64,000 nucleotides of DNA from Bolinopsis microptera (taxonomy: Eukaryota; Ctenophora; Tentaculata; Lobata; Bolinopsidae), in NCBI RefSeq assembly GCF_026151205.1, contig NC_087077.1:16789475-16853474 (forward strand), in the 5' to 3' direction. Under the pieces are notes generated by a model that saw nothing but the letters and a program-made list of their open reading frames with translations, had not been told where the DNA came from and did no database searches. Numbering within the stretch: position 1 is the stretch's first letter; the number at the start of each line of letters is the position of its first letter. Shown in pieces: positions 4,240-64,000 of the stretch. The translations under genes were made by a program, and so were the position numbers.

Positions 4240-7200
4240 CTGAAATGAATTTGTTGTCATTTGGAGAAGTTGCAATTTGTTCAGTTAGTCTAAATGTAAA
4301 TATTGTTGTGAAGTAATGAGGAATGGCAACGTTAAGTATTTATACTTGTTGTCTAAGACGTTTAATACTTTAAATGCATCATAGTTTAAACACAAGTGTG
4401 ACGGAAAGAGAAAGGTCGGAATCTAGACACATTCTTATCTTATGCTTTTGCTCATTTAATATTTTTGAGCTCATATAGAATCTTCTCAAGACCATATTCA
4501 AAGGAAAAGGTGTTATCTATTTAAAGCCGATTTAAGCATACAGACATCACTTAAAAGTCAAAATATTATATTAATAAGTTTTAAGGGAAAGGTGAAGATT
4601 TGACCATAGATATGAGGATTTAATGACTGCTCAACTGACTTTATCATTGGTTATTGAATTGGGCAATACGTTTACTAGGAGACTAGGGAGGAATCTAATG
4701 AAATTGTTCTCTTTTTCAAGAAATGATCTAAGTTTTCGACATGTTGGTATTAACAATTTTAATTTGATAAAATATATATAACTGCGTGCTATAAATATTG
4801 AGACTATTTTCATGGTTATGATTATAAATTACCATTTTGGGACCCGTCGTTTAGAGTCATCGGGCACGATTTTCTAGGGTGGGACTTTCCGAACCACTTA
4901 CAGTTCACACTAAACCAGCATATCACATCCTTGGTGTTACTACCACTTCAAGTGGTTAATAACCACTTGTTGACCATGCATTAAGGGCGAGCCTGATAAA
5001 TCTCAAAATCCCTGGATATATAATGGCAGAAAATCTTTTCTAAAGTACTCATCTGAATTCCTGCTGCCAGCAGCAGCATATCCATACCTTGATGACTAGG
5101 AGATCGGAGGCTGCTAGATGACTCCAAACAATGACGTCATATTGATAAATTAATACCTTTGCATCCTTTTGTCTTAAACTTTTCTGATTATACTTTGAGT
5201 CTAAGCTAACGCTATAACTAGCACGTGATTTTCATGAAAAACAATGGGCTTTTGTCTTGGAAATGACTTAATTATATATAATAATTATCTTGATCCATAT
5301 CAAGCCTTAATCTAATAATTATCCTTCATACGTGATGTAGCATTCAAGTACCGTGCAGGAGATCTAAGTTGACTAATAATCATTATTGGAATGATGAATC
5401 CATCTTTTTACAGGGTGAACAGGTAGTATAACTCCAACCTATTTACCGATGGTAGAGACACCTTTTAACCATATAAACATATACCCCAGATTTATTGACA
5501 GGTCGATCTGGTCGAACTGTTAACTGTAAACTGTTAGTTACTTGGTGATGGTTATTGAGTGAACACGAGCAGATGATCATACCGTCTCTCCGCCACAGCT
5601 CATTAGAACTCCACCAATTGCTCCGTTCTTTAGCACCACGGTATCATTATTATACTATTGTAGTAAGTTAATACCTACGTCATTCCAATCCAGATTATAA
5701 AACTACTGAACATTGCACGTGGGACGCGTCGCTTTTCAGACTGACTATACAGGTTAACATAACCTCTTATATCCCTTCCTAACATAAATCGTTATATCCC
5801 TTGCCTTAGGGGTTTTAACATAGTTTGTGATTCAGGAACGCACGACTTTAACAGTCTAACCCCCGGTAATGTTTAACCTCAAGTCTAAAATGTCATCTTT
5901 CACAGTTAACAGCGTGCTGGGTAAAACTGAGCTTTAAATATCAGAAATCACTTCCCCTATAATAAGCGATGCAGCAACTCAGAAACTTCGCACTAATTTC
6001 CTAACCACGCCGAAGATGTAAACGTCAAATGTTTCAACTTTAGTATTACATATGATGTTAGGAGATTGGAGCAAGCAAGAATAATTTTAGTTTACGATAT
6101 CTTATTCACTCGTTTAGGTTAGGAATGGTATCATAATATTTATAAATATATAAATATAACCATATTATGGCTATATGAATATTAATATTCACGATTAAAT
6201 ACCCTGTTCAATGATTTTAACATTCTGAGCGTCACAGTTGACAACAACTGTTTAAATAACTACAGAGCTTTCTGAGATTCCCAAAACCGCATCAGAGTTA
6301 ATATCTTGAAGTAAATAAATGATAGTTTTATCAATTTAAAGGGTTCACTAAGTGGTGTCTATTAATATTTTATCGGGAATCATTATAATTCCAGTTGCAG
6401 TTCATTTGATAAAAGCATTGAATAATATTATAATCTTATAATATATAATGAATATATAATGAATCTGATACTTTCAAGAGCAACTACATCTCTCGGAGAT
6501 AAATAATACACTTCGAACTTCTTCCTAAGTTATCCTGCTAAGGGGGCAGGGGGGGGTCTTTATAATATAAAGACCCCCCTCCCTGCCCCCTTAAGCTCTT
6601 CTTTGGTACCCTGAGTCAGGTCTCTACCTTTCAACTCCCCATTATAACAATGGGCCTCCTTCATGTGAAACAGACTCTTTTGGTCAGAAAAGGCTAGGAT
6701 AAAAACATTAGCGCTACTAGAAGATCCCTTAGACTCAACTCAGAACATCATCACAGAAACTCTTGCTCGGACAAGTGGCGCAGACCTCCCCTAGTTTAGC
6801 AGATTGTAATTAAACGAGATCTGATAAAGCTTAGTTTTGTTTATCAGTCCTACTCAGTGATAATAGTAATGTTTCCGGTTTTGCCTGTAGTGATGATTGG
6901 ATTATCTTAACTATCTTACCAAGATATTACTGTTCATGTTGTATAATTGTATTTCAGAGCTCGCGTTTATAAAAAGCGGGTTTGCTAGTTAATCATGATA
7001 ATTACAGATATGATACCATCAGCGACTACCGAGTAACGACGCCACGTAACTACTTAATGCTATAAAACTATACCTAATATAATGGTTAAGTATTCAGTGA
7101 TTCCCAAAACCGCATCCAATCTATGTGCTGACATCTGACGGGTTACTTATCAGAGTAAATATTTTGAAATAACTTAACATCGTTTATTCTTGCCGGCTCC

Positions 7201-10200
7201 AATCTCTTGATATAAAATACAGAGTTTAAAAGATTTAACGTTAGTGGGTGCTCGTAGTGGGTGATCATGCATAGTTAAGCCGAGCTGCATGGTTATGAAA
7301 TTGGTAGCTTAATATTTCAGATAATACCACCAACCCCCCAAGCAACGACCCTAGTTGAAGTGGTTTAGTTTATTTCATTTTCATGAATTCAGATATTCTG
7401 ACGCCACGTCACGCTATACCCTATGGTTAAGTACTTAGTGATTTGCCATAAAAACAGCTTCTCTAAGAACCCTCACCAGTGCACCTTGTTCACCTCCAGT
7501 ATCTTTGGAGAAAGCAGCGGGTCACACCACAGGTTATTTGCAGTGGGAAGTATCAACTATAGTTTTATCAAAGTTATCATTCATGATTATTTTGTTTATT
7601 CTTTATAAAAGTGCGATCTTCTTCCTGACTTTGCCTCTTATCGAGTTTACTCTCAAGTCCCATCTTACTGGATCTGACTGAGTCTTACTGGATAGGGTTA
7701 TTATTCATTAAGGTGTTATTATCCTGAGGTTTAACCACACAAGCTCAGGTACTCACTATTCCACACTGTGATCAAACATTCACAATCTTTACAATACCAA
7801 AATGGTCATATATCCGGATCCCGATGGCACTGTCGCGGCACTCTCGTGGCACTATGGCGGCACAGTGTCAACTTTCAATCATGTTCGTTCAAAAGCATAA
7901 GACAATCATTATACTTTCTTTATTATCTTTTCACAATAACCACGGTGTCATAAAAGCATTGCCCTATATTTACTAGCCTAGTCGAAGCCATGTGATTTAT
8001 TGATCTGATGAGTGGTGACGTGTCAGATGTACCTAATTAGGTTATGGGCGTTGCGATAACATTCTTGCAGCCTGCAGGATAAGTATCACATCGTAATAAC
8101 AAGTCCCACGTGCAATGTTCAGTAGTTTTATAATCTGGATCGGATTGGAATGACGTAGGTATTAACTTGACGTGAGGTGTGTCATGTGAATGCTACCTTG
8201 CAATCATGTCACAGAAGATGGTATATAAGGTGTAGTATTGCCAGATCCCAGTTCATTTTGTAACGGAGTTTTATATTAACAGGAAACGATGTAACAGAAT
8301 CGATATATTTTAATGTTATCATGGGTTGGCAAGTCCCCATACATCGTGGTCCGGTAGTTTCATTGCGTCCTAATATAAGACGAGCTCCATAAGGAAAGGG
8401 CATCAGTGATGGTTCACACCTCAAGATTTTTCAAGTACGCCAGCTACGAGGAGTTTCGAGATCATAGAATGATTTCAGCAGAAGCTAACTGCATGCAGTT
8501 CCCCGAATTTGGCTGCCAAAGTAAAGAAAGGGGTAATGCTTTTTATGACACCGTGGTTATTGTGAAAAGATAATAAAGAAAGTATAATGATTGTCTTATG
8601 CTTTTGAACGAACATGATTGAAAGTTGGTATTGCCACCATAGTGCCGCCATAGTACCGCCATAGTACCACGAGAGTGCCGCGACAGTGCCATCGGGATCC
8701 GGATGTATGACCACTATAATTCCAACCCATTCCATAAAGTTCGGACTGTAATTCAGGCGCTGGAGTAACAGGCCAGTTTTAATTTAATACACAAACTTAT
8801 TATCCTTTGTTGATGTTACTGTTGAACTGTTTATATATTTTATAACATCACTGAAGCGGGCCACTAAAGATTACCTTTAATAAATATTTCAATCTGGGAG
8901 GTGAACTTTATTTGTTCTGACACGTGGCAGCTATTCTGGCTGTTGATTGGTCGATACTCAATACTGGAAGCTGATTGATTTATATCGCTGCATTCGTCAA
9001 ACAAACAGTAGGTATGGTTCACCTCTCCACAAGAAACAAAATCTATGACCTACGTAATTTGATTATAGAAATAATGTAAGGTAAAATTTGATTGCTCATT
9101 TTGTCACGTTTTAAATTAAATGTTGTCACTTGTCACTGGTATGTGATTACTTAGCCGCTGGGTAAAGGCCCTAATTCTTTTAATTTGTCAGAGTTCAGAA
9201 AGCCATTTCGCTGCACGTGTGTTTCTACCGGAGCTAATCTAGCGAACCATCACAGATTATATCCTGTTATTAGTTCTTGCAGGGTGATGTTGTATGTTTC
9301 AATAAGTAATAACAACAGTGCGCGTGTACTAACAACAGTGCACGTGTACTAACAACAGCGCACGTGTACTAACAACAGTGAACGTGTACAATATTTACCA
9401 CCTTCTTCATTAGTGACACTATAACATCAATATCATTAACACGATCTTGAGAACTGAAAAGGAGAGGTAAAGGATATGTTGTCATGACAGCGATTAACTA
9501 ATGAGTTTTTGCCGTGTCAACTAATAAAAATCCAGAACCACTGTCACGTTTCAAGACAAATATCATGCACATATTGACCGTTGACGACGACCTTTGCCGA
9601 CCAGTAGAGTGTCTACTGTCGAGGTGTAACTTAATTCACAAGTTTTATTACCTGAGTACCTGGGCTGAGATAGCTGGTGTTGGAGCTTTTCTTATTAGAG
9701 ATTTTCTAGAATATTTTGTCATAGTAGGCTGTGGTAGACACTTAGGTAGACCCTATAATTATATTCTTATTTTGCCACATCTCGTTTATAATTCTTAGCT
9801 ATTTCATTGATTTTCTTAAGCGTGAATTATTTTACTCCCCACAGTTTACTTACTATCAAAGTATTAAGCAGTACATCACTATACTACATTAGACCTCTGA
9901 TTATGTTTAAATATCTTGAGACATGGCATCACGTTTTAAGTTCTTAGCTGTTTACTAATTTTATTACAGTGATTTCCTCTCCATTTTCCTGATGTACTCA
10001 GCCCCGTGTTATTTAATTTTTAATTTTATACTTTGTTCTTCTTTCTCAAAGATAATTATAAATTGAGGTTTTATGTAGCCCGATTACACGGCCCATTTAA
10101 TCTGGAAGTGTGCTTCCTGGACAATACAAAACAAAACAACAAAATGTGAAGATAAACCTGTTCCATGCTGGCCTTCTCTGCGTTACTCTCGTCCATTAGA

Positions 10201-54425: not shown

Positions 54426-54866
54426 TATAATTTTCTAATTCAATTTTGTACATAATTCATTAACACGAATAAAAACCTTTTTTGTGCGTATAGTACTACA
54501 TCATTGCGTTATAATATTTTTACAATTCAACAAAATACATTAATCATGGACTGCTACACTCCATATATAAAAAGTTGAGTTGCACACTAATTTTCTTATT
54601 TTGTTTAAAATACTTTCAACGTAACGTCTGTCGATGTCTCGATACCATATTTGTTGAATCTGCATCGATAAGTCCCACTGTCTCTTTCTGTTGGGCTTTT
54701 AAAGTAAAGCCGATATGTACCTGTAGATTATGTAAATTTGTGAACTACTGGTTAAATTGTCTAAATTGTAGAAGGCCCCAATTAATAGCTTATGCATTAT
54801 GACAATCATTCGATTTTAAGTTTTATGCTGGGCGCTCGATTAATGATACTTAGTTGGTAATGTCAT
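54426..54866. other. Intergenic, nothing recognised
   Basis: AT-rich spacer between the LINE tail and the end of the lectin gene; must contain that gene's cleavage site. No other feature. Confidence 0.4.
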
Positions 54867-55787
54867 TTAAAAACCTTTATTTTTATTGAACCCAAATGTT
54901 TCTCCATGACTATCTTCTGACAATTTTACTGGAGCTTGACCAGGAGTGATCTTATACCAATCAACATTATTTGGATCAGATTGATTTGGCAGGTTGATAT
55001 CGATGACCTTCAGATCACATATTATCCAAAAGCTTTTTCCCGATTCTTGATCTTTTGTCAGTTCTTTCCTGTTCTTTATTCTTACTGTTGCTGAACCCTC
55101 TGAATAAAATTTCAATTGATATTTAATTTTGAATATTCATAATAGTATTATGATAGTTTCTAATAAATGGAAATGTACAACCCCACATCATGTGTGGATG
55201 AATTCCCCTACATAAAGGTTACAATAGAAAGGGAAGTCGTCACTTCATTTACACTTTGTATTGAACTTACCAATCATTTCCACGATAACCGTAGCATTGC
55301 AACGTTCTTTGCTTTCTTTAGTTTGGAATTTAACATGAGCTTCATAAAGTCCTGCGTCCTCTGGTTGGAAAGAATTGATCTCAAAACCTCGTACCATTAC
55401 ATCCTTACCATCTGTTGCTGGATCAAAATGATTTCCATCTTTTAACCAACTCACTGTTCCATGTTTTTGGAAGGCACTTTTCTTTATTCCACTGAACTGT
55501 TTTAAACTAATGTGAATTTTTACTAAGTTATATATAATATTTATTTTTTTACTTGTATTTTACTTCTATTTAAGAACACATTATATCATACTGTCTGTCT
55601 ATCGAAAGAAACATTCGTTTGACAATTTGAATCTCCAATAACCAAATGAATCAAATTTCGATGTTGCATTATTTATCCTCAGAACTGGTTTGACTGCTAT
55701 TACTACTAACCCAGACGGTGAATGATGAGTCTATTACCGCTCTTATATGATCAGGTTCCAATTCAATACTGCAGTCATTCCATATAT
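54867..55787 (-). CDS. Ig-like C-terminal exons
   Basis: Exons 55787-55711, 55496-55271 and 55099-54867. VSWLKDGNHF and FQPEDAGLYEAHVKF form the Ig strand C to F pattern, but Ala replaces the usual Cys after Tyr, so the standard disulfide is missing. The last exon (EGSATVRIKNRKEL, ICDLKVIDINLPNQ) may begin another Ig-like domain and ends NKNKGF then TAA. Two adjacent AATAAA hexamers (54876-54887) overlap the last codons. Confidence 0.7.
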
Positions 55788-58700
55788 CTGTGGAATTAGC
55801 ATTGAGAACTTCAATTAGCCAGGAAAAAAGTTACTCTATTTAAAAATCGCCTCAGATGTTAGATAGAAAGTATTCACTTTTGATCTAATTATTAAAAATA
55901 CTCTAATAACCTTTGTCGACACAAGTTTCCGAATCAGAGTCTTTGACAAAACCAGATTTGCAATGACAGCGGTATCCTCCAAGGGTATTCTCACAGTCCT
56001 CAGTAGGAGAGCAATTATCTTCAGTTGCACATTCATTCACATCAACACACTGTTTATTTTTTGGTATATATCCTGAATCACAATGGCATTTTCCTGCTTC
56101 ATCTTGGACAAAAGCTTCCTGACAGTTACATGTGTAGCCCCCTGCAACAGTTGCAATGCTTGAGAATGTTCTTGAAGATAATATTAACTTAAATTCTGAT
56201 CAAGGCAATCAAAATTCAAATAAGTTGTTCAAAATTCTATACTCAGTACGAAAAATATCATGTTTTGTTAAAACCTTCAATATTGGAGCAAACATATACA
56301 TCTTCATCACATGGATTTGTCAAACACTCATCAATGTCTTCACATCTGCCACTCACCAACTTGTATCCTGCCAAACACTGACACCTAAACATTAATTACA
56401 TATTTTATTTGATACAAATATTTGGTTGTTGTGCTTTAATTCCTGCAGTTTATTGTACTATTTTCATGAAAATTAGGCAGTTCTGTCACATCAGTAAATT
56501 GAGTCATATAACCTGTAAGATCCAGGAATGTTAATGCATTCTCCATTGCCACATGGCATCTCTGCGCATTCATCCACATCTACACAGGTCTCACTATTAA
56601 AATGATACCCTTCGTTGCAGACACATTTGAAATCAGTTCCATTGATAGCAACACATTCACCTTTTCCGCACCTGCCGCATTATGTTATTATTCCTGTGTG
56701 ACTCAAAATTATTTTGAACCCTAACTCATCATAGCATAACTCACTAGTAGGTATGTGAAAGTTCAATAGCTTTATCATATCAATTGGTCTTACCTCAAAG
56801 GTTGTTCCTCACATGCACCCGGAATAACTTCGTTACACTGTGGTAAGCCATTTTTCCCAAGTGTACACTCCTCATTGTCATCACACCTCATTTCTTCACA
56901 TGTGGGGCAGGCTCTTTTAATGTATTCATCTCTGAAACGGGTTTTTTTTCCTGTCAGCAATGAAGTGTTAGATGTAATAATCATACGTGTGTTATGTGTA
57001 GCATTCTCCTAGCATACAGAAGAAGAATGGAATCATTGTTCTTTCCTAATATTGGTTTCTCCAAAGGCATTATTACCCAGTTAGTTTTTGACAGATCATG
57101 GAAAGACGACACCAGGATCCCGGTTCGTTTACGCAATCTTTCACTGAACACACTCCATCCTCAAGTCTGATGTTTCCTATACTGTCGATCTTAGACCTGA
57201 TTTTTGTAAAAATTATTTTCGACCAGCTAGTCTCTCACAGACTGATCAGACACTCAAAATAATTTTGTTGATAGGTAAACTTTCAACTTGAGTATTTCGA
57301 AATAGTCTTAAATACTAACCTGATTTGCTTTGAAGTCAACTCCATCCAAGGACTATAGATGTTACAACTATTTGGAACATAACCTTTCGGACACTCAAGG
57401 CTTGGGCTCTGGCTGCTTTGATAACGGTACTCGTAATTTCCTATCATCAGCTCTGAGCATAAGTCTTTTGCAATGTTTATTGGTCCACAGTATGCTATCG
57501 CCTAAAAATCAACAACATGAGATATATTTCGTACTATCCAACAGTCTAATCTCTAAGTAATTGCAACAAGGACTATTGTATAACCTTTTCTTAAAGATAT
57601 GTACTGCAATAACCTGGATGGAATGAGGTGATTTTCTTGAACTCTGAGCAACACAGGAGGCCCCTGAATTCTCGATCACAACTCCGTCACTTGCAGTTGG
57701 AACTCCGTAAGTCATACACCTCATCACCTTCAATCCTAGATGTGACACCGTATAAGTTTCCAATGATTCGTGGTAAATAGTTGAGTAAATTATTTATCTT
57801 ACAGATCAGAAGATTAATTAATGCTCCATTTCCAAAATAATAATCGTATAAGTGAGAATAAAATACCATTTGGACATTCTGCTGTTGATTTAGCATCTAC
57901 TGCTGATATCGTGTCACCAACAACGATCGTCCCTAGTCGAATAAAAGTAACATAAATTATAAGATAGCAAGGGCCAAGGATGTTGCCTGGTTTTTATTCG
58001 TTCTGAACTGAACCCCTTATAGAATGTTAGAATATTGAGCTTAAATAATTGAATTCTTGGAAAAAGACTAGTTAGCTTACAGATAGTATTCTTAATGACA
58101 CATGTTTTGAGATTGCTAGCTGTGTCAGTATGAAGTTGGTATCCCTCCTTGCAAATACAAGTGTAATCCTTATCTCCAACTGGTTCACATTCTCCGTATG
58201 TGCCACATCTGAACAATGAAATGTTAGAAATAAACAAGAGGGAAATGATGGGGAAGTTGTTACATCGACAGCTATACTGGATTTTGATTGGTCGATGATC
58301 GAGCTGATTGTACCATCTGCAGGCACTCTTACCAACAATCAACATCTAGCCTTAAGGATAAAAACTAACCTATTATTGTCCTGACATCCAGTTTGTTTGG
58401 TCTTACAGGAAGGTTTATCATCCTCCATGACACATTCCTCGTCTTTATCACAGTGATATCCTTTGCAATCTGGACAGTGTGCTGCAACATACTCTTCTCT
58501 GGTGTGAATGTTTTCAATTAAGTGTTGGTGGAGCTATTCAATTAGGAATGAAAAATTCAAAAATTGTTTTCATTTCATTTCATTTCATTTCATGGTTTCA
58601 CATAGCATGAGAAATAACTGTAAATAACTGACTTACAGGTCATTAAGCTGGCATATGGCAGTAGTAGTGCAGTATTTTACCCCACAGTTTGGTAAAGTAC

Positions 58701-61700
58701 AGGTGTTGTCACTGAATGATACCTGACCAGTGTGAGTCAGTTTTCTTTTCGCTGCAGCACTGAGATGTTAGGATTTTAAATTCAAAACATCGACTTAACA
58801 TAATATTATTCTATAAAATTATTACAGTATTACTGACTACTGTATAGCATTGCTCGAAACAAGACCAAAGAACCTGTGATATTTGACAAACAAAAACTTT
58901 CGAGTTGTGGAAGAACACAAGAAAATAGAACAAGTATGAATTATGGTTAACCTGATGCCAGGGGACCACCAGCTGTGGTACAAGCATCCTACCATCTCAT
59001 ATCCACCCTGGCAGGAAGAGGATGGAGAGACAGCACTGTTCACTGAGTAGGTTAGAGATGGTATCTTGGCACCGTTACATGGGTCCCTCTCCTCCACTCC
59101 TAGAGTGCATATCCCTCTTGCTTTTACAGCCTTTCCTATGTAACTGTTAAATCCCGTACAAGTTCCGGCTCCATCATTGTCCACAAGAAGACCATCACTC
59201 TTATCGGGAACGTTTCCAACAGTGATCGAGCAGCTTTTGACTTTGTAGCCAGCAGGGCATTTTGCTATTGATTTTTGGTCGTCACCAGGTCCTGCCGTAT
59301 CTCCATCAACCACTCTGTCATCTCCCTCTGCGGATTTGAGAATAATCATGAAGTTGATTGAAAAATTGAAATCAATGCAAACATTTGGTGTTATGTAAGT
59401 TGTTACATATATTAAACATGATATACCTGTCTTTTGATTTAAGCTAAAATAAACTCACGGTCTATGGGATTAGGAAGACCAAGAACTTTGACTTCACACA
59501 AGGTTAGATATGTTGAAGGGTTCACCACTTTAACATGGGAAGCAATTGTGTCACATTCTATCACATACTCGTTTTGCCCTGCTTTGTAAGTCACAATTCC
59601 ACAAAGCTTGTCTCCTGCATAAACCTGTAACACCAAGTTACAAGGGAGACGTTTTAAGTGAAAGGAATGAAGATCTGCAATCTGCATGGTCTGATTTATG
59701 GGTTTAATTTGGGCTTTAAGTAAGTGTTTTTTAGAGAATATGTACAGTTATACTGTACCTCTATTCCGTTGAGCCTCTCTGCACAGCAATCAACTCGGTT
59801 GTGGATAAGAATCTTTTTGACATGGTAAAAGTTGAGCAGGTCTACGTCCCACCAGCCTGGCCCAGCAGTGTGAGTACAGGATAGTCCCCAGTAGTGAGAG
59901 TCAGTGTTTCCATCAACTGCGCGCGCACTTGCTCCATCCCAACCAGTGCTGCTCTGACTGGTAGGCTTCTTCAGTGCCAAGTTGACCAGCGTGTTTTCAG
60001 CTGAAATACCGGAATAGTCATTATTTATTACATGACATTGTTTCTAAAGTGAAAATATATAAATAAATATATAAAAATATATAAATTAATTATAATTGAA
60101 TATTACTTTTAAAGGAGTGTGAATAATATGTGCTTGTAGCTTGTTACAGAGTATGTTATAAGTGGCTACAAATAGTTAGTTCCAACCGTACCTTCCTTTC
60201 TGGGGTCAGACATGACCTTGACTTCACATAACGTAAGATATTGCCTTGGTGCAGCAACTATTCTCACGTTTGATCCTGCTACTCCCTCAGTGTCACAGTA
60301 CACCTTGTAGGTCCTCAGTCCTGCTTCATATTCAACTGTTCCACAGAGAGTTTCATCGACAAACACCTGCATTAATTTCATAACTATATTGCTCTTCCAC
60401 GTATTATTGCACCAAGTGTTTCGCTTTTAGAAATTTAGAAATTTAAAAGTTGAAGTTATCACATGACGTTCTTCTCGAGCCCATAATCATAAAACATTGA
60501 ACAGAAAACAACTTTCTTGGATCTAAAAATGAGAGGCAGATTTTCAATGAGAAACCTACCTTAGCACCATTGATTCGCTCCTGGCAGCAGTCTTCTCTGT
60601 TGTAGATGATGACATGGTCTATCACTTTCGCAGACTCAAACTTAAGGTTCCACCAACCATCCTCTAAATCGCCATTGTGTGAACAGGAGTTACTGTCAAG
60701 AATTTGATTTTAGTTATGTTCATATCATTTTCTAAATAAACTAATGTCCCCCAGAGTCTTCTTGGTAGACCGAGAACAAGTCAATTGTTACTTCTACAAA
60801 CGCCCTCATATATCATCACAATGAGTTCACGATTAAATCATAATATTATTCTCACTGCCAATAATCGCTGTCTTCATTTCCATCAACAGCTCTGTTAGCC
60901 TTGCCATTCCAACCAGTGCTATCTTGTGTTGCTTTACCGTTAACTGCTATGTTGTCAAACTCATCTTCTTCATCCACTGTCTCGTAACCTTGTTTGGGGT
61001 AAAATCATTCTTAACTTTAAGCCTTTTATCAAATAGTTATAAAATTCAAATTTTAACTTATTAAAAATGTATGGTTCAAGATACTATCCATATCTCTTTT
61101 CGATTAACGGTAAATTTACCTAATTATCAGTAATTAATAATTACTAAATGGCTTACCTATAACTTCTACCTCACACAGAGTTAAATATTGTCTTGATGTC
61201 CTGATCTTCACTGAACTTCCTTTCTTTTTACACGAGATAGAATACACTAGAACTTCTGCTTGAGCTGTTATTGTTCCACACAGTTCTTCATCGATATACA
61301 CCTAAAGGAAGCTGAGGTAAAGAGCAAGATCATAGACTTACTTCAATATACGCTGGAATAGACGTCTTAGAAACATTATATTATTTGCATAGAAAAGACA
61401 GTATTGATTATTGAATGGCTAAGTTAAACAAAATGAAAACCTTTGCCCCATTAATCCTGTCTGAGCAACAGTCCAGCCTATTGTAGACCACCACTCTGTC
61501 CACGAAATGCTCCCTCTTCAAGTCCAAGTTCCACCACTCGAGAGTAAGAGTGTTAAGTGTGTGTGTACAAGTTCCCTCTGGCCACCTTCCATCCACTCTG
61601 TTGTCAGTAGCCCTGTTGGCGTCCCCGCCCCAGCCAATACTGGACTGGGTTGCTGGCTTGTTCAGGCCTATGTTTGCCATCGGTCCTGCCAATAAGTACT

Positions 61701-63892
61701 CATTATCTATAACTAATCTATAAGTAGGTTTGTAGGTTCCTTGAAGTACTTAATAGCCTAAAGATCTTACTGTAGGCTTCATATATCCGTATTTTATATC
61801 AACTTGGTTACTGGGGAATATGTTAGTAACAAAATATAGTTGAACTAACGAATCGTTGTATCTGTACAGACAGTTTTCTTTGAAAAGTCATGGAAATTGC
61901 GAATTAGGCTTTGTGGACTGGTCCATTTACATATCATCAGCTCAGTAATTACCATCTTCAGATCTTTTACCGTACACTCGGACCTCACAGAGAGTTAACA
62001 TATTGTAAGGTTGTCTAATAGTCACGTGGTCTGCAACAAGTCCTTCACACTCTATCTTAAACTTGGTCTCACTAGCTAAGTATTTCACAGTTCCACAGTA
62101 CACACTTCCTGCGTATACCTGACAGAAGGGATTATGAAGCTATGAGCTAATCTTTCAAAGTAAAACATGATCATGTCAATAACTATGATTATCAAATTTC
62201 GGCTGAGCCTATTAAGTTGGTAAGTTTGAAAACTATAACGCTAAAGATCGTATAAATTGATTAAATTACCATTGCACCGTTGATCCTCTCTGCACAGCAG
62301 TCTTGTCTATTGTGTATGATAACGTGCTTGATCGCATAGTTATCCTTGAAATTTACTCTCCACCAGTTACCTTTCATTTCAGCTGTATGTGTACATGAAT
62401 TGCTGAAAAGCAGTAGTAAGTACTCTTCCCCTTACTAATGGCGGATTTGTTCAGATAGATTGGCCATTTACTAGATTTGTATTAATAGTAGAACATAAAT
62501 TATGCAATCGCCATCTCATTAGATAGAGATAAAGTGAGTGGTGTTACTCACTGGAAATAGTGTCCGTCAGTGTTTCCATCAACAGCACGAGAACTGCTCC
62601 CTGAGAAGCCAGTTGAGCTTTGCTCTGTTGATGCTCCCACAGATATCAGACTCATGTCATCTGAAGTTACGTTTTTAATAACTTTTTGTCAATCCAATCT
62701 TTTGTGCTTGGAAAAGGCTATTTGAATTAGCTTTATTCAAGAAAAATTGAAAAGTGAGTTTCCAATCGCAATATTGAATCACCTTCACAATGGTCGAGTG
62801 TAAGATAGAAAGCGTTGTTTGCCGAGTTCACTCCCCAAACAAAGTCTCCATAAGTATCAATCTGAGCAAGTTTCCCAGGGACATGAACCCAATGTGAGCC
62901 TGCAGGAGCTGAGGATGTGATCCCCGCCCTGTAGAAGATATCGTCATTGCTGTTCACACCAAAGACTACATTCTTACCAGATGAAATCCATTTCAGCTTC
63001 CCTCCAATGTGCTGCCACTGAAGATGGTTTTAAGTTAATCTTTGAGAAATAAATTTGATTTAAAATTTTAAATTTAGTTAAACAAATAGTTTTTGCCAGT
63101 TTATATTTTCACTTTGGTAAACGTCATATATAAAATCAAAGTTAAGATTGAAATAAGGCGATCATACCCCAGTTCCCTGAGAATCAGGATCTCCGTAAGT
63201 ACCAGTTCTGTAGAAGATATCATCGTTAGTATTGACTCCCCACACTCCTGACTGTCCTACACTCACTACTTTCAGTCCACCTGAGACTCTCTCCCAAGTA
63301 TTTCCTGTTCTTCTGTAGATATTATCCCCACTATTTACTCCCCAAACATGGTCATTATCACTCACTGAGACCTGTTAATGGGAAATTTTTCAACAAAAGT
63401 CAGATCCAAATTATGATTTTTATGAAATCTAGTTTTACAGAGTTTGATTTAAGAAAATATAATTATACATAATTACCGAGTATATATTCGATTTTGAACA
63501 TATTATTATTTAACCTGCTTGAGTCTTCCACCGATGTTAACCCAGTTGCCTGACCCTATTTTTCTGTAAATAAGATGAGCTGAGTTGACTCCCCATATCT
63601 CAGATCCTCCCACAGAAATATCAGTCAGTACTCCAGGGAAAATTATCCAATTTTCTGCAGATCTATCAAATATTTGGTCACAAATTGCAAAGGTGTTTAA
63701 TACTATTGACATTAATAAAATCCTAAATGTAAGTCGTTGAATAACGAAACTAAAACGATACATGTGGAAGTGTTTTACGGAACCTGTAGTAGATGTGACC
63801 AGCTTTATCCAGGCCCCAGGTACCAGCTCCTCCGTGGGCTACTTTTGTTAACTGGTCCCTCTCTTCCTTCCACCCAGACAGACGTGCAGCTT
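54867..63892 (-). CDS. Multidomain extracellular lectin-like protein (tectonin, fucolectin, Cys-rich, EGF, Ig), 5' end outside window
   Basis: Probably a secreted or matrix carbohydrate-recognition protein. Twenty-nine exons join in phase, about 1,586 codons: 63892-63784, 63662-63515, 63371-63168, 63017-62783, 62660-62552, 62402-62270, 62118-61953, 61685-61441, 61301-61157, 60988-60856, 60692-60560, 60366-60192, 60000-59759, 59624-59459, 59327-58952, 58759-58637, 58498-58370, 58208-58081, 57932-57867, 57735-57614, 57501-57320, 57196-57077, 56931-56794, 56671-56513, 56384-56275, 56141-55911, 55787-55711, 55496-55271, 55099-54867. Domains: six tectonin repeats, four fucolectin/F5-8C-type domains, two PCSK9-tail-like Cys-rich modules, EGF-type modules, one Ig-like domain. 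It opens in the middle of the tectonin block, so start and signal peptide lie beyond the window. No frameshift or stop interrupts any join. The stop is TAA at 54867. No transmembrane segment was seen in the visible part. Confidence 0.9.
55911..57196 (-). CDS. EGF and Cys-rich repeats, C-terminal block (five exons)
   Basis: Exons 57196-57077 (CVNEPGSWCRLSMICQ, related to 58759-58637), 56931-56794 (CPTCEEMRCDDNEECT), 56671-56513 (CGKGECVAINGTDFKCVC, then CVDVDECAEMPCGNGEC), 56384-56275 (CEDIDECLTNPCDEDV) and 56141-55911 (CVDVNECATEDNCSPTEDC, GGYRCHCKSGF). The D-x-D/N-E-C starts mark calcium-binding EGF domains, common in matrix proteins. Confidence 0.85.
57320..57932 (-). CDS. Cys-rich module 2, PCSK9 C-terminal-domain-like
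   Basis: Exons 57932-57867, 57735-57614 and 57501-57320. Lead VGDTISAVDAKSTAECPNG, then VMRCMTYGVPTASDG, GASCVAQSS, CGPINIAKDLC and CPKGYVPNSCNIYSPW. It aligns with module 1 but is split by two introns. The acceptor at 57735 (CTAG before GATTG) is chosen because it alone gives CPNGLKVMRC in phase. Confidence 0.55.
58081..58759 (-). CDS. EGF-type Cys-rich exons between the two Cys-rich modules
   Basis: Exons 58759-58637 (TCTLPNCGVKYCTTTAICQL), 58498-58370 (CPDCKGYHCDKDEECV, then CKTKQTGCQDNN) and 58208-58081 (CGTYGECEPVGDKDYTCICK, EGYQLHTD), the last a clear EGF pattern. The middle exon is paralogous to 56931-56794, so a larger block has been duplicated. Confidence 0.75.
58567..58595. repeat. 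(TTTCA)n microsatellite
   Basis: About five TTTCA units in an intron of the lectin gene. The same unit forms the LINE tail at 54408-54425, so it may be a LINE remnant. Confidence 0.8.
58952..59327 (-). CDS. Cys-rich module 1, PCSK9 C-terminal-domain-like
   Basis: One 376-bp exon: CPAGYKVKSCSITVGN, DGLLVDNDGAGTCTGFNS, GICTLG, then CQGGYEMVGCLYHSWW. The order of a Cys pair, a Gly/Asn-rich Cys segment and a final CxxGyxxxGCxxHxW resembles the Cys/His-rich repeats at the C-terminus of PCSK9. The match is from memory and modest. A related module follows at 57320-57932. Confidence 0.55.
59459..60000 (-). CDS. Fucolectin-type domain 4 (two exons)
   Basis: Exons 60000-59759 and 59624-59459. Motifs: SQSSTGWDGASARAVDGNTD, CTHTAGPGWWDVDL, HNRVDCCAERLNGI and STYLTLCEVKVLG. 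Exon structure matches domain 2. Confidence 0.88.
60192..60988 (-). CDS. Fucolectin-type domain 3 (three exons)
   Basis: Exons 60988-60856, 60692-60560 and 60366-60192. An acidic lead (VDEEDEFDN), then STGWNGKANRAVDGNEDSDY, CSHNGDLEDGWWNLKF, YNREDCCQERINGA and RQYLTLCEVKVM. Confidence 0.88.
61157..61685 (-). CDS. Fucolectin-type domain 2 (two exons)
   Basis: Exons 61685-61441 and 61301-61157. Motifs: ATQSSIGWGGDANRATDN, CTHTLNTLTLEWWNLDL, YNRLDCCSDRINGA and RQYLTLCEVEVIG. The first two exons of the three-exon form are fused here, showing intron loss or gain between repeats. Confidence 0.88.
61953..62660 (-). CDS. Fucolectin-type domain 1 (three exons)
   Basis: Exons 62660-62552, 62402-62270 and 62118-61953. 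Motifs: QSSTGFSGSSSRAVDGNTDG, CTHTAEMKGNWWRVNF, HNRQDCCAERINGA, and the closing YNMLTLCEVRVYG. This is the fucolectin/tachylectin-4/pentraxin (FTP) version of the F5/8C fold. The Asn-Arg-x-Asp-Cys-Cys motif is typical, with adjacent cysteines by the fucose site in eel fucolectin. Confidence 0.88.
62783..63892 (-). CDS. Tectonin-repeat block (six repeats, four exons)
   Basis: Six tectonin signatures in order: TWGLDKAGHIYYR, IWGVNSAHLIYRK, VWGVNSGDNIYRR, VWGVNTNDDIFYR, VFGVNSNDDIFYR, VWGVNSANNAFYL, each preceded by a G-x-L-x-x-(I/V) strand. Tectonin repeats form beta-propellers in fish-egg lectin, limulus lectin L6/tachylectin-1 and TECPR proteins. Six visible repeats would suit a six-bladed lectin propeller, but more may lie upstream. 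The first visible exon starts at an acceptor, so at least one exon precedes it. Confidence 0.9.
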
Positions 63893-64000
63893 CTAACGAG
63901 GTATTATTATGATGTTTTACTTAGATAAGATAAATATTGTTCCCTAATCCCTAATCAAGTATTAGATCATAATGGAGGCTCGCACTAAGATAGATTTTGG
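63893..64000. other. Intron upstream of first visible lectin exon
   Basis: AT-rich intron sequence ending at the acceptor CTCGTTAG (minus strand) before 63892. Nothing else seen. Confidence 0.6.

Follow-up and report, generated by a model that had tools for sequence, protein, structure and literature searches.

What kind of protein is encoded on the minus strand of a 64,000-nucleotide stretch of the genome of the ctenophore Bolinopsis microptera (contig NC_087077.1, positions 16,789,475 to 16,853,474; hereafter the window), where a preliminary description had joined 29 exons into one protein of unusual domain order, and does that protein stand alone? We find that the predicted gene extends beyond those exons on both sides and that its C-terminal part, a fixed series of domains that we call the chassis, recurs in the same genome beneath N-terminal heads built from other lectin-type folds. 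Our favoured reading, which we hold with somewhat better than even confidence, is a secreted multivalent lectin that recognises microbes or foreign surfaces.

Coordinates 1-64000 below refer to the window. The gene continues upstream of its window part, and positions 64001-71275 (L002:1-7275) number this extension, which lies outside the window in the 10 kb examined beyond its edge on the 5' side of the gene. The model is a dynamic-programming chain of exons trained on the obvious ones, with splice joins predicted from the DNA; we added the first and last exons manually and adjusted exons 42 and 45 in the same way. The predicted gene comprises 47 exons across 16,671 bp, from extension position 71275 to 54605, and encodes 2,855 residues in one complete open frame, whose lone stop stands at its end (54605). 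A signal-peptide-like sequence opens the frame at 71275, outside the window, which holds 30 of the 47 exons. The 29 exons in 54867-63892 do join in one frame, as first described, and correspond to exons 18-46. They are not the whole protein, because 17 more 5' exons supply the signal peptide, four further tectonin propellers and two modules that we refer to as FKWSFAG, and because the 3' end moves from 54867 to include one more exon that completes the second immunoglobulin (Ig) domain. Three propellers are thus followed by two FKWSFAG modules, two propellers, four F-type domains, two successive blocks of a V module and a cysteine-rich (Cys)/epidermal growth factor (EGF) part, EGF domains and two Ig domains, as follows.

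Extension 71275-71221, minus strand: signal peptide (first exon, placed by hand)
Extension 71026-70021, minus strand: propeller P1 (gene model; Tectonin PF19193, 1.2e-55)
Extension 69811-68675, minus strand: propeller P2 (gene model)
Extension 68547-66403, minus strand: propeller P3 (gene model)
Extension 66203-65829 and 65602-65201, minus strand: FKWSFAG exons 13 and 14 (gene model)
Extension 65092-64046, minus strand: propeller P4 (gene model)
63893-64000, minus strand: part of intron 17; the gene continues outside the window with exons 1-17
62783-63892, minus strand: propeller P5, exons 18-21 (gene model); its core is the central exon 20 (63168-63371)
61953-62660, minus strand: F-type domain 1, exons 22-24 (H-X26-RQDCCAER, RAVDGN)
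61157-61685, minus strand: F-type domain 2, exons 25-26 (H-X27-RLDCCSDR, altered calcium motif)
60192-60988, minus strand: F-type domain 3, exons 27-29 (H-X26-REDCCQER, RAVDGN)
59459-60000, minus strand: F-type domain 4, exons 30-31 (H-X24-RVDCCAER, RAVDGN)
58637-59327, minus strand: V1 Cys-rich module, exons 32-33 (first described as PCSK9-like; PCSK9_C1 below cut-off)
58081-58498, minus strand: Cys1 and EGF, exons 34-35 (EGF PF00008, 22.8 bits, cut-off 21.5)
57077-57932, minus strand: V2 Cys-rich module, exons 36-39 (gene model, paralogue comparison)
56794-56931, minus strand: Cys2, exon 40 (gene model, paralogue comparison)
55911-56671, minus strand: calcium-binding EGF domains, exons 41-43 (EGF_CA in three stretches; end of exon 42 set by hand)
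55271-55787, minus strand: Ig domain 1, exons 44-45 (a 48-bp intron placed by the program within exon 45 was merged by hand)
54605-55099, minus strand: Ig domain 2, exons 46-47 (exon 47, 54720-54605, carries the stop)

The 46 introns measure 105-1058 bp (median 149.5), and intron 11, the longest, is the sole one above 267 bp and sits within propeller 3, so that little space is left for a gene boundary. Module starts are in phase 1 in 15 of 18 cases and in phase 2 in the other three. Across the whole predicted protein no 19-residue window exceeds a hydrophobicity of 1.6 past residue 30, and the product is therefore likely to be secreted and soluble. On the opposite (plus) strand, a 299-residue open frame at extension 66603-67499, mostly in intron 11 and antisense to the gene, looks by eye like a retroelement fragment.

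Domain searches, a check that the preliminary description had named, upheld its tectonin and F-type assignments. Tectonin (PF19193) scored 188.8 bits against a cut-off of 30 in a Pfam scan of propeller 1, exons from all five propellers were matched in a tectonin search of the genome, and six repeats per propeller, thirty altogether, were counted by eye. The tectonin relatives found in the PDB by sequence include tectonin 2 (5fsb, 4.4e-33) and fish-egg lectin (4ruq, 8.3e-25). In the F-type block, F5_F8_type_C_2 (PF22633) matched four stretches at 176.1 bits (2.2e-52, cut-off 27.8), and the best solved relative of domain 2 is FBP32/MsaFBP32 (3cqo, 2.3e-29). EGF_CA (76.5 bits, 1.9e-21, cut-off 27) and I-set (36.9 bits, 3.8e-9, cut-off 23.7) were likewise called in the window gene. 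A continuous predicted frame and Pfam calls above their cut-offs support the claim that Cys-rich, EGF and Ig modules are joined in one gene to lectin folds of two unrelated kinds.

All four F-type domains carry the basic His/Arg/Arg triad and the vicinal cysteines known from fucose-binding lectins, in the form H-X24..27-RxDCCxxR, and three of them have the calcium motif RAVDGN. In the eel agglutinin AAA, 26 residues lie between His52 and Arg79; the corresponding spacings here are X26, X27, X26 and X24 for domains 1-4. The fucose motif is printed as HX24RXDX4(R/K), and the cation motif as h2DGx, in PMC5712786, and the exact X24 spacing occurs in one of the four domains. We infer that the F-type domains bind fucose-type glycans.

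The unusual domain order emphasised in the preliminary description is real but not unique. We built models from the window gene's own domains, searched them across the same genome (C-numbers denote contigs) and examined four loci along their length, namely C13:14.36 Mb, C13:7.54 Mb, C4:5.25 Mb and C9:1.0 Mb. The chassis was present in all four in the same order, with four F-type domains, V, Cys, V, Cys, EGFs and Ig (F-type counts come from grouping exon hits), and each locus has a final exon ending in a stop that is equivalent to exon 47 of the window gene. Such a recurrence exceeds what chance would give, and a single one-off architecture is therefore rejected. The heads differ. At C13:7.54 Mb we found Kringle (8.7e-16), Tectonin (9.4e-47), B_lectin (1.6e-14, two stretches), Gal-bind_lectin (6e-30, two stretches) and a WSC domain barely above its cut-off (28.2 of 27.8 bits), together with an unassigned module that is present twice. 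The head at C13:14.36 Mb, which was modelled apart from the tail of that locus, combines a tectonin propeller (9.1e-42) with a galectin (3.7e-13), and the C4 and C9 heads carry galectins (C4, 2.1e-14). A query with the C4 V2/Cys region gave 39 genome matches, which group into about eleven loci including the window gene; all but six of these were examined along their length.

Phylogenetic grouping suggests some depth in time for the chassis. V1 and V2 separate by position across the five genes (support 82/84; 84% of bootstrap trees), which we treat as moderate evidence because the branch of the window V1 is very long. The F-type tree holds 19 of the 20 domains, C4 domain 2 being excluded for its broken model and domains 1-2 of C13:14.36 Mb and domain 4 of C9 being incomplete; in it position 3 groups at 99/99 and position 4 at 77/32, and positions 1 and 2 form no single groups. 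Overall, the position labels need 4 changes where 3 is the minimum possible, and none of 200 shuffles came as low. The chassis, with the paired Cys-rich/EGF block duplication first proposed from the window alone, thus probably arose before these five genes diverged.

Several other features were seen in or near such loci. Inside the paralogue at C13:14.370-14.376 Mb (L004:2711-9159) lies a 66-bp tandem array of 97.7 copies with 98% matches, whose unit derives from the first part of an exon for F-type domain 2. The unit length is a multiple of 3, two reading frames of the array stay open, for 1,868 and 301 residues, and each unit has an acceptor-like CAG|GT. The array may be an exon, or an intron with ~100 decoy acceptors. 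Adjoining the C13 paralogue is a 2,839-bp open exon on the minus strand (C13:14386563-14389401); it contains Cys-rich repeats and what look like membrane segments, and by eye it resembles a receptor. At C1:3466500-3527458, FKWSFAG, F-type, galectin and tectonin matches cluster on one strand and probably represent further poly-lectin genes.

What might such a protein do? Our main argument is that a variable lectin head on a constant tail would favour a role in recognition. The gene would encode a secreted, soluble mosaic lectin, in which a constant C-terminal chassis (four F-type domains, two V/Cys blocks, calcium-binding EGFs and two Ig domains) bears a gene-specific N-terminal head of other lectin-type folds, here five tectonin propellers and two FKWSFAG modules. 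The propellers and F-type domains may bind glycans, in the F-type case fucose-type ones, through many weak simultaneous sites, and microbes or other surfaces bearing glycans could be agglutinated, coated or anchored by this multisite binding. A spacer between lectin parts would be provided by the EGF rod, and the V/Cys and Ig end may hold partners or self-assemble. Secretion, sugar binding, multivalency and an immune or barrier role are all suggested by this architecture. Of the roles first proposed, multivalent recognition remains plausible, and the choice among immune, matrix and mucus or adhesive functions is not one that sequence can make.

Several points weigh against recognition of microbes or foreign surfaces. 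Sequence alone fits immune, matrix, mucus or gamete roles alike; F-type domain 2 has the altered calcium motif RATDNR and lacks the cation motif; and the V module belongs to no Pfam family above cut-off. Several splice sites score poorly, including the weak donor of exon 46 (gtttttaaat). The paralogue gene models are rough and include spurious exons, and the C4 Ig pair, whose final exon was missing from the query, had no match in Pfam.

The leading alternative, though an unlikely one, is a structural or adhesive glycoprotein of the extracellular matrix (mesoglea or basement membrane), whose lectins would bind the animal's own glycans while EGF and Ig domains link it into the matrix. Phase-1 modules are typical of matrix proteins, and the predominance of phase-1 starts noted above, the EGF_CA and Ig modules and a common chassis without sign of a membrane anchor all agree with such a role. 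However, the family varies in its lectin head and not in its chassis, which is better suited to recognising varied targets, and the pieces scanned contained no laminin, collagen or fibronectin type III module. Rather less probable is a component of a ctenophore secretion, such as the glue of colloblasts (capture cells), mucus or an egg coat; repeated multivalent lectin modules would suit a cross-linked secretion, and one solved relative of the propellers is a fish-egg lectin. A secreted lectin recognising microbes or foreign surfaces remains our preferred reading.

The five propellers of the window gene share a 204-bp core (about 1.5 repeats) with 94.1-99.5% pairwise DNA identity, whereas the remaining exons of the propeller cassettes are 55.8-84.1% identical. 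Ungapped identity in 12-bp bins is 0.83-1.00 within the core, 0.48 and 0.56 at the edge bins and about 0.25-0.42 farther out, and at all five cores the high identity ends at the exon edges. We used this ungapped profile in place of gapped intron identities (58-89%), which the aligner inflates, most of all against the 1058-bp intron. Fourfold degenerate sites differ in 40/333 cases (12%) in the core and in 213/384 (55%) outside it, so protein constraint alone does not account for the identity. This suggests gene conversion or recent exon copying as the simplest reading of how the core spread. We see only a slim chance that the near-identical cores are an artefact of assembly or polishing: near-identical repeats are generally prone to false correction, but the cores still differ from one another and their identity stops at exon edges in five of five places. 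The five-copy core would then be a clean natural example of homogenisation halting at exon edges.

Besides the five propeller places, a genome search for the core returned a match at C10:14.446 Mb (88% over ~110 bp), in a frame-broken stretch (C10:14445000-14448000) that by eye resembles the 5' region of the gene and is likely a dead partial copy. A separate tectonin frame lies on the plus strand at C10:1300532-1305619 (L012:4533-9620), a single open frame of 1,696 residues with a signal-peptide-like start and seven propellers, six of which are 99.5-100% identical over 666 bp. It sits between the V exons of a chassis-type locus, on the opposite strand, and a tectonin frame at C13:2.544 Mb is likewise placed.

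The weakest alternative, slimmer still in our estimate, is that separate tandem genes, or the alternative heads of one gene, have been fused by the model into one five-propeller chain; the joins are indeed predicted, and FKWSFAG exons 13 and 14 are 95.7% identical, so one may be an alternative, but a single signal-peptide start was found (71275), the frame is continuous with compatible phases, and the introns are too short for a promoter and terminator save intron 11, which interrupts a propeller.

Two recurring modules could be assigned to none of the families in the libraries that we searched. In Pfam the V module comes closest to PCSK9_C1 and PCSK9_C3, sub-threshold wherever a score is shown: PCSK9_C1 reached 16.1 and 18.0 bits on the window V1 (cut-off 31.3) and PCSK9_C3 17.5 bits on one V member of the C3 array (cut-off 26.7). 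PCSK9_C3 matched seven of 12 V members, with a best E of 0.00045 (the bit score of that member was not displayed). A 12-sequence V profile found no PCSK9 chain in the PDB up to E 10. Membership of V in the PCSK9 family is therefore not supported, and we keep the PCSK9-like label of the preliminary description as a lead only. When V1 and Cys were searched together against the PDB as one query, the sole match was an eggshell-membrane protein (E 0.17), and AlphaFold2 on exon 32 alone, from a single sequence, gave a mean predicted local distance difference test (pLDDT) of 34.5, too low for a usable model. The FKWSFAG module matched no Pfam family above cut-off and gave no significant PDB match, either as a single sequence or as a profile. 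Both modules also occur elsewhere. At C13:5.99 Mb (L020:1936-4128, 7014-9347), FKWSFAG arrays lie in two uninterrupted frames with signal-like starts, 730 and 777 residues long, the first carrying thrombospondin type 1 domains (TSP_1, 6.5e-27). Uninterrupted frames at C7:5.17 Mb (L017:522-2366) and C3:13.28 Mb (L018:593-2806) have three and four V modules respectively, and the former terminates in a TSP_1 domain (6.1e-11). Both modules are ready for structure work.

How does this gene compare with known systems? With F-type lectins such as eel AAA and striped bass MsaFBP32, its four tandem domains have the basic triad and vicinal cysteines in common. Mosaic F-type proteins with C-type lectin (CTL), pentraxin, complement control protein (CCP) or transmembrane (TM) domains are described in PMC5712786; the word ctenophore does not occur there, and in its accessible part we encountered no F-type protein that joins tectonin, galectin, B-lectin, EGF_CA and Ig to the F-type domain. 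Known tectonin proteins include Laccaria tectonin 2, fish-egg lectin, horseshoe-crab GBP and human TECPR1/hTectonin, the last of which is built of two propellers and is reported to bind lipopolysaccharide (LPS; PMC2707011). The window gene differs in that its predicted secreted product would unite five propellers, whose core exon is homogenised, with lectin folds of other kinds. As for the C-terminal Cys-rich domain of PCSK9, the likeness of V stays below threshold, as set out above. The Mnemiopsis genome paper (PMC11797021) likewise describes multi-domain recognition proteins in a ctenophore; the terms 'fucolectin' and 'F5F8' occur 0 times in it, and in its accessible part F-type lectins are not treated. 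A glutamate-receptor frame of the genome studied here had variants of ML032222a, a Mnemiopsis gene name, as its sole PDB sequences at E up to 1e-60, in keeping with a ctenophore source. A literature search of partial coverage, which does not show absence from print, found no work joining ctenophores and tectonin and no description of this lectin combination.

To conclude, mosaic lectins are already known, and what would be new here is several unrelated lectin folds on one chassis. We tentatively propose a germline-encoded poly-lectin family of constant chassis and variable head in this ctenophore. If true, it would constitute an immune repertoire made by domain exchange and not by point variation in one fold. 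With unrelated lectin folds set on a common chassis and the genes spread across at least four chromosomes, this early-branching animal would have assembled its recognition repertoire in a distinct manner.

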